A stretch of DNA of 64,000 nt from Oceanibaculum indicum P24 (GTDB taxonomy: Bacteria > Pseudomonadota > Alphaproteobacteria > Oceanibaculales > Oceanibaculaceae): NCBI RefSeq assembly GCF_000299935.1, contig NZ_AMRL01000019.1, positions 1 through 64,000 of the forward strand, written 5' to 3'. The notes under the pieces are model-generated. The model was not told where the DNA came from. It was given only the letters and a program-made list of their open reading frames with translations, and did not search any database. Position numbers and translations under genes: made by a program. Below are positions 49,145 to 52,054 of the stretch, piece by piece (the stretch's first letter is position 1; each line of letters opens with the position of its first letter).

Positions 49145-49810
49145 ATGCGCCTGCTTCAGCCCGACGATTTCCGCAATGCCTCCCGCGCTGAGCTGGTCTA
49201 TCGCGCGCTGCGCGCGGCAATCCGCGATGGCGAGATGGAAGCCGGCGAGCGGCTGCGCGAAACCGATATCGCCGAGAAGCTGGGCGTCAGCCGCACCCCG
49301 GTGCGCGAGGCGCTGCAGCGGCTGACCGCCGAGGGGCTGCTGTCGGTCACCGCCGGGCGGGGCGTCATCGTCACCGAGTTCGACAAGCAGCAGGTACTGG
49401 AACTCTACGCCTTGCGCGAGGTGCTGGAAGGGGCAGCCGCCGCCTTCGCGGCAGAACGCGCGAGCGAGACCGATATCGACACGCTGCGCCAGCTGATCGA
49501 GGACGAAGCCACCGGCGCCGGTGACGGACGCAGCCTTGCCGCCACCAACCGCGCCTTCCATGCCGCGCTGTGCGAGGCGGCACACAACCGCTACCTGACG
49601 AGCGCGATCAGCGCGCTGGCCGATTCCATCGACCTGCTGCGCGGCACCACGATCGCGACTCCGGGCCGGCGGGCATCGGCGGAGGCGGAACACCGCGCCA
49701 TCGTGGACGCCATCGAGCGACGCGACCCGGCAGGTGCCGAGCGTATCGCCCGCGACCATATCCGCGAAGCCCGGCGCATCCGCCTGCGGATGCTGTCTCC
49801 ACAGCGTTGA
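49145..49810 (+). CDS. GntR family transcriptional regulator, FCD type
   Basis: A 221-residue regulator with an N-terminal winged helix (AELVYRALRAAIRDGEMEAG, then LRETDIAEKLGVSRTPVREA) and a C-terminal FCD ligand domain (about 80-215: LYALREVLEGAAAAFAAERA, TNRAFHAALCEAAHNRYL, EAEHRAIVDAIERRDPAGAE). The three FCD histidines are present (FHAAL, EHRAI and DHIREA), consistent with a metal-assisted carboxylate site. It is divergent from the TcuA-like gene and is its likely regulator. It lies 193 bases from that start. Confidence 0.92.
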   Translation: MRLLQPDDFRNASRAELVYRALRAAIRDGEMEAGERLRETDIAEKLGVSRTPVREALQRLTAEGLLSVTAGRGVIVTEFDKQQVLELYALREVLEGAAAAFAAERASETDIDTLRQLIEDEATGAGDGRSLAATNRAFHAALCEAAHNRYLTSAISALADSIDLLRGTTIATPGRRASAEAEHRAIVDAIERRDPAGAERIARDHIREARRIRLRMLSPQR

Positions 49811-49811
49811 C

Positions 49812-49850
49812 AACAAAAAGAAAGACGGCCCGAAGGCCGCCTTGCGTTCA
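49812..49850 (-). terminator. Terminator for the Nif11-type precursor gene
   Basis: On the minus strand CGGCC-TTCG-GGCCG is followed by TCTTTCTTTTTGTTG. It is about 78 bases after the precursor stop (49928) and lies just after the convergent GntR gene. The U-rich side faces left, so it serves leftward transcription. Confidence 0.65.
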
Positions 49851-49927
49851 TCTCCGAAACGCCAAGTTCGGATTGTCATGAAAAGCGGGATATCGCCGTC
49901 TGTTCAGTACGTAAGAACGGCAAGAGA

Positions 49928-50215
49928 TCAGGCAAACCAATCCGGTACAAAGAAATTATGCAAAGAGGCACCACCAGCAACGCCTTCCAGATCTTCATCG
50001 GAAAGCTCGCCATTCCGGGCGGCACCGACGGCGTTGATCAATCGGCTTGCTTCGTCTTCGGACAGATCAAACCCGTTGGCCTGCGCGAATCCGGCGGTTT
50101 CGGCAACGGCCTGTTCCCGCCCTGAAACGCCGTTCAGCCGCTCTGCAAGGCCGGTAGCGAGGGCTTCATCCTCGTTCAGCGTTCTTGCAAAGCTTCGCAT
50201 GGTTTCTGTCATCAT
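49928..50215 (-). CDS. Nif11-type leader peptide, orphan RiPP precursor
   Basis: A 95-residue protein with the layout of Nif11-like natural-product precursors. An N-terminal helical leader (MRSFARTLNEDEALATGLAE, ETAGFAQANGFDLSEDEASR) resembles the Nif11 domain. The leader ends in ELSDEDLEGVAGGA, a double-glycine site cut by bifunctional peptidase-transporters. The remaining 13-14 residues, ASLHNFFVPDWFA, would be the core: aromatic-rich, one Ser, no Cys or Thr. A start at 50215 or 50212 is supported by AGGGAGGGAG. No modifying enzyme, peptidase or exporter is adjacent. It is an independent transcription unit between two terminators. Confidence 0.78.
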   Translation of the reverse strand: MMTETMRSFARTLNEDEALATGLAERLNGVSGREQAVAETAGFAQANGFDLSEDEASRLINAVGAARNGELSDEDLEGVAGGASLHNFFVPDWFA

Positions 50216-50246
50216 TCGCTCCCTCCCTTCTTTGATTTCATTGGAT

Positions 50247-50255
50247 ATTATCACA
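50247..50255 (-). promoter_or_regulatory. Candidate extended -10 of the Nif11-type gene
   Basis: On the minus strand TGTGATAAT fits an extended -10 element (TGn then GATAAT), 32 bases before the start at 50215. No good -35 hexamer is seen 17 bases upstream, as can be the case for extended -10 promoters. Confidence 0.3.
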
Positions 50256-50307
50256 TCCGCGCGCTGATTTCCGCCCCAGCGTCCCGGTTCGATTGACAAT
50301 CTGTTTC

Positions 50308-50340
50308 GGAAAAAGAAAAGGGCGGCCCGAAGACCGCCCT
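50308..50340 (-). terminator. Terminator of the membrane chemoreceptor gene
   Basis: On the minus strand AGGGCGG (50340-50334), an eight-base loop and CCGCCCT (50325-50319) are followed by TTTCTTTTTC. It lies 23 bases after the chemoreceptor stop and isolates the downstream Nif11-type gene. Confidence 0.8.
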
Positions 50341-50362: not shown

Positions 50363-52054
50363 TTAGCCGGCGCGCAGCGATCTCAGGAATTCCGCAACCT
50401 TGGCCTGCAGGGTTTGCGAGTTCGTGGACAGGTCGTTGGCTGCGTCCAGCAGACGCTCGGAGACGGTGCCGGCCTGATTGGCGGCCTCGCTGACCTGGCC
50501 GATATTGCCGGAAATCTGCTGCGTGCCGCTGGAGACCTGCTGCACATTGCGCACGATTTCCTGCGTCGCCGCCGACTGCTCCTCGATGGCCGCGCTGATC
50601 GCGGTCGCCGATTCCGAGACCGAGCCGATGATCTCTCGGATATGACTCATCTCGCCGGCCGCCTCGCCCACCGCGCCGCGGATGCCGTCGATATGGCTCT
50701 TGATCTCGTCCGTCGCCTTGGCGGTCTGACTGGCCAGATTCTTCACTTCCGACGCCACCACCGCGAACCCCTTGCCCATCTCGCCGGCACGCGCCGCCTC
50801 GATGGTGGCGTTCAGCGCCAGCAGGTTGGTCTGCGCCGCGATGTCGGCGATCAGGTTCAGCACATTGCCGATTTCCTCGGCCGCGCTGACCAGCCCCTGA
50901 ATGGTGGTGGAGGACCGGTCCGCGGCGGTCACCGCCTCCTGGCTGATATCGCGGGCATTGCCGGTCTGCCGGCCGATCTCCTGGATCGAGACGGTCAGCT
51001 CCTCGGCGGCGGCGGCAACAGTCTGCACATTGTTCGCGGCATCCTGCGTCGCGCCCGTGGCCTGCCGTGCCTGATCGCGGGTCAGGGAGGAGACGCTGGC
51101 CATTTCCGTGGCGCCCTGGCGTACCGCCTGCGATGTGCTGGAGACCTGCACCACGACGCCCTCAATGGTTGCCTGGAACTGGTCGGCAATACGGCGCAGA
51201 TCGTCCTGGCGGGCCTGCGCGGCGGCAGCTTTCATCCGTTCCTGCTCCGCCCGCAGCTGCTCCGTCTCGGCAGCGGCGCTGCGCAGCACCTCCAGCGAAC
51301 GGGAAATACGGCCAATCTCGTCCTTGCGCTCGCGGTCCGGCACGGCGCGGCTCAGGTCGCCGGCGGCCATCGCCTCCATCACACCGGACACGCCGCGCAT
51401 CGAGCGGCTGACGTCACGGGAGATCACCACGGCGATGCCGATGCCGATCAGCACCAGCACACCCATCAGCGCGGCGACATGCAGTGCCTTGTCCATGAAG
51501 GCAGCATCCAGATCGTCGGTATAGACGCCGGTGCCAACCATGATGTTCCAGCCCGGTACCAGCATGCCCCAGCTGATCTTGTTGATCGGTTCGGCATCCT
51601 TGGTCTTCGGCCAGAGATAGTCGAAGCGGCCACCGCCTGCGCCGGATTCGGCGGCGCGGCGCATTTCGCGCAGCACGAAGGTGCCGTTGGAATCCTGCAG
51701 CCCCCACAAATTCTTGCCCTGCATGTCCGGGCGGATATGGGCGACATTGTCACCCTCCAGCGTCCAGGCGAACAGGTATTCGACCTTTTCATAGACCATC
51801 GAGCTGGTGGTGGTGCGCCAGCTCTCCTTTGCCTGCTGCTCGGTCAGTTCGCCGGCAGCGACGCGCTTTTGCAGCGCCAGCGCTACATTCACGCTGGCTT
51901 CCGTCAGCGCCTTCACCTTGGCCAGCCGTTCGGCCAGCATCGCGCCATGCATGTTGGACAGAGTGAGGCCAACGCCCAGCGCCATGGTCAACACCAGAAC
52001 GCCGATAATCACACCCAGCTTTGCGGAAATGGACAGGTTCTTGAAAAGCGACAC
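50363..52054 (-). CDS. Methyl-accepting chemotaxis protein with single-Cache sensor
   Basis: A 563-residue transmembrane chemoreceptor. TM1 is about 12-34 ([20 protein letters not shown]). A periplasmic sCache_2-like domain (about 35-185) contains [39 protein letters not shown] and [22 protein letters not shown]2 is about 190-212, then comes a HAMP domain. The signalling tip is [20 protein letters not shown]. Single-Cache domains of this type usually bind small organic acids. The start is GTG at 52054, preceded by GGGGGA; the longer frame to 52129 would place charged residues before TM1. The neighbouring TRAP and carboxylate genes suggest a related attractant, as inference. Confidence 0.93.

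Follow-up and report, generated by a model that had tools for sequence, protein, structure and literature searches.

A divergent Nif11-type precursor gene that appears to be one of about ten scattered secreted-peptide genes sharing one cutting exporter

The window, a 64,000-nucleotide stretch of DNA from Oceanibaculum indicum P24, carries on its minus strand a gene for a 95-residue peptide precursor with an 82-residue leader and a 13-residue predicted core (MMTETMRSFARTLNEDEALATGLAERLNGVSGREQAVAETAGFAQANGFDLSEDEASRLINAVGAARNGELSDEDLEGVAGG followed by ASLHNFFVPDWFA). The reading frame, its start and its strong ribosome-binding site were recovered as originally predicted, as were the two minus-strand hairpins on either side, one ending the upstream chemoreceptor gene and the other lying 3' of the precursor gene. 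Shuffled versions of the region contained 1.1 terminator-like sites on average. Placed between these two hairpins, the gene is, on the evidence of its sequence, its own transcription unit. The possible extended -10 noted earlier is indeed found upstream; a standard promoter scan detected no sigma-70 site at the gene, and no Rfam family matched within 47–54 kb of the window. The coordinates of all features are collected in Table 1.

Table 1. Features of the precursor locus and the gene of the candidate regulator
Feature	Coordinates	Strand	Basis or remark
Precursor gene, 95-aa Nif11-type leader peptide precursor	49928..50215	-	ORF, profile matches, G002 ortholog
Alternative start ATG of precursor gene	50212	-	
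Leader, residues 1-82, ending ELSDEDLEGVAGG (V-4, L-7, L-12, GG)	49970..50215	-	TIGR03798 match ends at 49970; published motifs
Predicted core ASLHNFFVPDWFA, residues 83-95	49931..49969	-	Sequence; putative cleavage
Shine-Dalgarno AGGGAGGGAG, strong	50219..50228	-	Sequence
Extended -10-like TGTGATAAT	50247..50255	-	Sequence; putative promoter element
Shared bipartite element GAAACAGATTG-N11-GGGACGCTGGGG, 22-bp tandem repeat	50274..50307	-	Ends 58 bp before ATG
Intrinsic-terminator-like hairpin 3' of precursor gene	49822..49843	-	
Intrinsic-terminator-like hairpin ending upstream chemoreceptor gene	50319..50340	-	
Upstream neighbour, methyl-accepting chemotaxis-type protein	50363..52054	-	Named from sequence; outside system; synteny anchor
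Downstream convergent neighbour, GntR-type regulator	49145..49810	+	Named from sequence; outside system; synteny anchor
AraC-family gene (PF14525 + PF12833), candidate regulator	L042:12773-13819		Divergent from NHLP operon, contig C3

The leader scores 24.0 bits (E 3.4e-5) against TIGR03798, the Nif11 leader model, for which the curated cut-off is 32.3, and its PF07862 score of 14 bits likewise falls short of the cut-off of 23.8. These scores mark the leader as a divergent sequence that current annotation leaves unnamed, and the protein is best described as a predicted divergent Nif11-type leader precursor, short of formal TIGR03798 membership. The end of the leader, ELSDEDLEGVAGG, agrees with every listed position of the published Nif11/NHLP cleavage-site motif (acid at 1, 4 and 6; L at 2 and 7; S/T at 3; V/L at 10; GG at 12-13; PMC2887384), which bears out the double-glycine site of the original prediction. 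The hydrophobic residues V-4, L-7 and L-12 and the GG before the cut, which characterize substrates of C39/PCAT peptidases, are all present. The core, 13 residues long with a computed monoisotopic mass of 1549.735, contains one Ser and neither Cys nor Thr. It therefore lacks the combination of Cys with Ser/Thr needed for thioether rings, and the earlier view that lanthionine rings are unlikely can be sharpened: no such ring is possible because there is no Cys. In the PDB, the precursor sequence matched a Nif11 domain protein only weakly (9zn4, E 0.14), comparison of its AlphaFold model (pLDDT 76) with PDB folds returned nothing significant, and a scan of genome contigs with the precursor retrieved two distant clostridial precursors only. 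A syntenic ortholog is present in G002, a genome of the same genus (L025:9726-9995; 47% identical), with a leader dN/dS of about 0.31. This argues that the window frame is under selection and that the gene is real.

The gene was originally regarded as an orphan. No partner enzyme or other partner gene is encoded in its neighbourhood, so that part of the description stands; paralogs, a C39 exporter and a LanM enzyme are, however, present elsewhere in the genome (G000; assembly of 3.95 Mb in 71 contigs). TIGR03798 finds nine matches at E<=1, on contigs C1 (two), C5 (two), C6, C11, C18, C19 (the window gene) and C20, the window gene aside occupying seven further places; three of the paralogs (C1a, C6 and C5b) score above the cut-off. 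A single NHLP-type precursor on C3 matches TIGR03793 with 41.5 bits against a cut-off of 50.9. The core is free of Cys in seven of the nine Nif11-leader precursors, window gene included. Such leaders are infrequent in the class: only 14 of 387 sampled genomes have a TIGR03798 match at E<=1e-4. The precursors form tandem groups in G054, G107 and G391 and are mostly single genes in G000. Four tandem precursors follow an NHLM exporter in G107 (L110:15499-17540), and their cores differ but all end in K(K/Q)W. Precursors in G391 and G189 (L109:5148-10563, L111:12647-12997) have His-rich or Ala/Val-rich cores and lie near a TolC-like gene and a gene for a 665-675-aa protein resembling a B12-type radical-SAM maturase (both named by eye). 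The C6 precursor (L024:9619-9990, L026:9812-10183, L027:9867-10238) adjoins an isopropylmalate-dehydrogenase-like gene; its Cys-free core of ~42 residues is conserved in three species, in contrast to the variable window core, making it a good first target in the search for a functional peptide.

G000 contains exactly one C39 peptidase match, the N-terminal domain of an NHLM_micro_ABC1 protein, and this protein belongs to a complete NHLM operon on contig C3 (HlyD-ABC1-ABC2-TolC). All components scored lie above their cut-offs (ABC1 1090 bits, cut-off 853; ABC2 913 bits; HlyD 325 bits), so that paralogous precursors and a matching exporter occur in one genome. The closest PDB relative of the C39 domain is LahT150 (6mpz, E 4e-49), and exporter residues C45/H118/D136 align with C27/H101/D117 of LahT, indicating an intact Cys-His-Asp triad. 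LahT cuts many Nif11 leaders, reading V-4, L-7 and L-12 (PMC6363468). Between the NHLP precursor and the exporter lie genes for a SpoIIE phosphatase, a STAS-like protein, a HATPase, an ABC ATPase and a methyltransferase (L040:3953-8419). The NHLP precursor itself is apparently in an operon with an RTX-repeat subtilase and a 367-aa protein without family match (L040:2343-3852, L042:14031 / L040:32-2290).

The regions upstream of the scattered precursors have the 8-mer CCGGGACG in common. In a blind comparison, it occurred in five of eight precursor regions, the maximum in 2000 random sets of eight control regions being four. It is present in 17 copies in 224.6 kb of G000, of which 11 lie inside genes; all six intergenic copies are located 64-89 bp before either a precursor gene or the subtilase gene, the first of the NHLP operon. 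The 8-mer is half of a bipartite element with the consensus GGGACGGAATG-N11-GGGACG, the repeats being 22 bp apart. A weight matrix built from eight sites (window, C1a, C1b, C20, C6, C18, NHLP operon and exporter-operon methyltransferase gene) ranked these as the top eight in 623 kb of the 3.95 Mb, with leave-one-out ranks of 1 to 3. The exporter-operon site, 66 bp before the likely start of the methyltransferase gene that heads that operon, was first found with a matrix from the other seven sites rather than picked by eye. In six scattered precursors, the window gene among them, the element ends 57-61 bp before the ATG, and a tandem-repeat site at a fixed distance before each start is what an AraC-family regulon would present. 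At the window gene the second half-site ends 22 bp before a GATAAT -10-like hexamer, and the NHLP operon has two overlapping copies of the element. The C6 orthologs in G002 and G003 retain a version of it. No element was found at the LanM operon, the LanM-linked precursors or the C11 precursor of G000, nor was one recognisable at the exporters of G002 and G003. Upstream of precursor p0 and hlyD of G107 we observed repeats of seemingly similar design with 21-bp spacing, picked among several spacings.

Tandem sites adjoining the -35 are a common target of AraC-type activators. The AraC-family gene divergent from the NHLP operon has relatives, 30-34% identical, beside NHLM exporters in G054, G107 and G333, and none at the other loci compared, including the G001 site. 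On the strength of this gene neighbourhood in four genera, we infer that the encoded protein is the most likely candidate for an activator acting via the element. A different kind of control was also considered. Hairpins pairing with the Shine-Dalgarno sequence (CTCC..GGAG) lie upstream of several precursors (L019, L020, L021, L022 and L024), and this sequence is less open in the precursor group than in controls (p 0.011, uncorrected), an effect that the window gene does not show. The window gene lacks such pairing, and a common RNA hairpin that masks the ribosome-binding site was therefore dropped as an explanation.

The closest relative compared is the sister species G001, whose flanking-segment DNA is 87-96% identical to that of G000, above G002 and G003 for the same segments. 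Searches of G001 gave no match to TIGR03798 at E<=1 and none to LanM, and NHLM_ABC1 is missing as well, its best score of 325 bits falling short of the cut-off of 853. At the window locus, its GntR-type and chemoreceptor genes are 66 bp apart and a single terminator copy is retained. The alignments of the two flanks share 29 bp at this terminator, the outcome expected if two hairpins had recombined. The clean absence at this locus, read from the alignments, is compatible with such recombination between the two terminator hairpins. Clean empty sites are likewise found in G001 for C1a, C20, C6, the LanM locus on C5 and the exporter, whose 7.9-kb segment (L040 8416-16319) is matched by 46 bp; C1b is absent with changed sequence, and C11 and C18 can be aligned on one side only. 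G001 retains the methyltransferase but lacks the about 104 bp that carry the element site. It also keeps the genes from the SpoIIE phosphatase to the methyltransferase, but exporter and NHLP precursor are both missing. On their upstream side, the segments absent from G001 begin about 98-119 bp before the ATG, which made transfer as mobile cassettes a possible alternative; the length corresponds to that of a promoter with its gene, and inspection by eye showed no target duplication.

The window gene occupies the same place in G002, and the C6 gene, with its core conserved, the same place in both G002 and G003. Because these places are occupied in more distant species, both genes were probably lost in G001. 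C1a and C20 are missing in all three relatives and may, by the same comparison, be gains in G000. In G002 and G003 the exporter occupies different sites from that in G000, which makes its history less clear than that of the precursors. In the G002 ortholog of the window gene, GA replaces GG, the core has seven residues, and a 22-bp upstream stretch is duplicated; the shared element is absent.

Taken together, the window gene appears to be one of about ten scattered precursors of secreted peptides that share one cutting exporter; most of these precursors appear to be under a common regulatory DNA signal, and none of the set is present in the closest relative. The tie between the window gene and the exporter follows from the coordinated absence in G001 and from the shared element, both of which the original prediction had missed. 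We consider it probable that the scattered Nif11-leader precursors are co-expressed and served in trans by a single exporter. An AraC-family activator would bind the 22-bp-spaced repeat upstream of the promoters of the window gene, the other precursors, the NHLP operon and the methyltransferase-exporter operon. The C39 domain of the NHLM_ABC1 exporter would then recognise the 82-residue leader via V-4, L-7 and L-12 and cut after Gly-Gly, and the core would leave the cell through ABC1/ABC2-HlyD-TolC. The core is predicted to be unmodified or to carry a small change at most, for example a Ser dehydrated by LanM or a methyl group added by the methyltransferase of the exporter operon, and the leader would act mainly as an export and processing address. 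Cleavage and export in trans of such an unmodified or lightly modified core is the most likely fate of the product, in keeping with the trans-processing option originally proposed, and its most likely role, a predicted one, is in competition or signalling between close relatives. Counting against this explanation are the sub-cut-off scores, the altered cleavage site, short core and missing element of the G002 ortholog, the exporters of G002 and G003 at other positions without a recognisable element, and the C11 and LanM-linked precursors without it.

The strongest rival is a prochlorosin-like route, in which the single LanM acts in trans to dehydrate the one Ser to Dha before export, the modified peptide being the active one. 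A genome-wide search for modification enzymes did find a LanM on C5 (TIGR03897, 482 bits; PF13575), and no match in G000 to YcaO (PF02624) or SPASM radical-SAM enzymes (TIGR04085). Many unlinked Nif11 precursors are substrates of ProcM-type enzymes (PMC10783134), and the distribution of LanM fits, since it is present in G000, G002 and G003, whereas G001 lacks both LanM and all precursors. However, the window core cannot form a ring, and the LanM gene directly follows two Cys-rich precursors of its own, with which it forms a group without the shared element. Furthermore, Nif11 precursors with almost Cys-free cores (a single Cys in one core each) adjoin NHLM exporters in G054 and G107, and G054 has no LanM match, which favours export without ring formation. 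We therefore regard the prochlorosin-like route as unlikely. In G002, one of three LanM-linked precursors (L077:8948-9226) has no Cys-rich core (ESRDQNRRVEIIII) and is likely a decaying copy.

It is highly improbable that the full-length protein works inside the cell uncleaved, the non-RiPP role raised in the original prediction and unsupported by our comparison. The class does contain brief matches that cover just the first 48 positions of the leader model and not its GG part (family f40), and the ortholog in G002 has GA at the cleavage site and a shorter core, but the cleavage motif and the LahT contact residues are present in the window leader, precursor presence tracks exporter presence within the genus, and the exporter operon has the same upstream element. 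That the gene is the decaying remnant of an earlier peptide family and no longer functions is just as improbable: the sub-threshold score, the loss in G001 and the unconserved core in G002 would agree with decay, but the frame is intact, with a strong Shine-Dalgarno sequence, its own terminator and the upstream element at standard spacing, the leader shows the low dN/dS against G002 given above, and the exporter looks functional.

RiPP precursors that lie scattered, with no enzyme gene beside them, are usually dismissed as orphans. In this genome they are linked by the upstream element, by the one exporter and by comparison with a strain that naturally lacks them, so that their processing and control become directly testable. 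The case also suggests that a Nif11 leader can function as an address for exporting peptides that are not modified, and that split peptide systems missed by cluster-based mining can be traced through the promoter elements they share. A broader reading, which we put forward tentatively and rate at slightly less than an even chance, is that in this genus the RiPP-type leader is a general secretion address and that an AraC-type activator switches on, genome-wide, Cys-free and mostly unmodified single-gene peptides together with one peptidase-exporter. If this is true, any new core arising behind the leader and the element would join the secreted repertoire.

The proposed control resembles that by AggR, an AraC/XylS-type activator whose site is reported to lie 21-22 bp upstream of the -10 and to overlap the -35 (PMC6392122), much as the second half-site here ends 22 bp before the putative -10; the sequence differs, and our system has two half-sites 22 bp apart, with predicted binding. 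LahT of the AMS/PCAT type from Lachnospiraceae (PMC6363468) provides the closest solved C39 domain, with the same triad and a tolerance of many Nif11 leaders, but its precursors share a cluster with the transporter. The prochlorosins and SyncA peptides of marine picocyanobacteria (PMC10783134) are alike in their many scattered precursors with a conserved leader and a variable core, one LanM and export by a C39 transporter, and a few of their cores are reported to lack Cys and Thr. In contrast, the scattered cores described here are Cys-free, and the only precursors that LanM is grouped with are two Cys-rich ones, which stand outside the shared regulon. A further close relative is the Nif11/N11P (TIGR03798) and NHLM export (TIGR03794/03796/03797) system of Haft et al. 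2010 (PMC2887384), with which we find the same leader type, cleavage motif and GG, a paralogous expansion and a dedicated three-protein exporter with a C39 domain. Our system differs from it in occurring in an alphaproteobacterium-like class where such systems are rare, in its single scattered precursors with Cys-free cores, and in a sub-threshold leader; the literature searched contained no description of the shared upstream element or the AraC-type candidate regulator. The precursor and the exporter are of a known type, and what sets this system apart is its proposed regulon and its scattered set of Cys-free cores.
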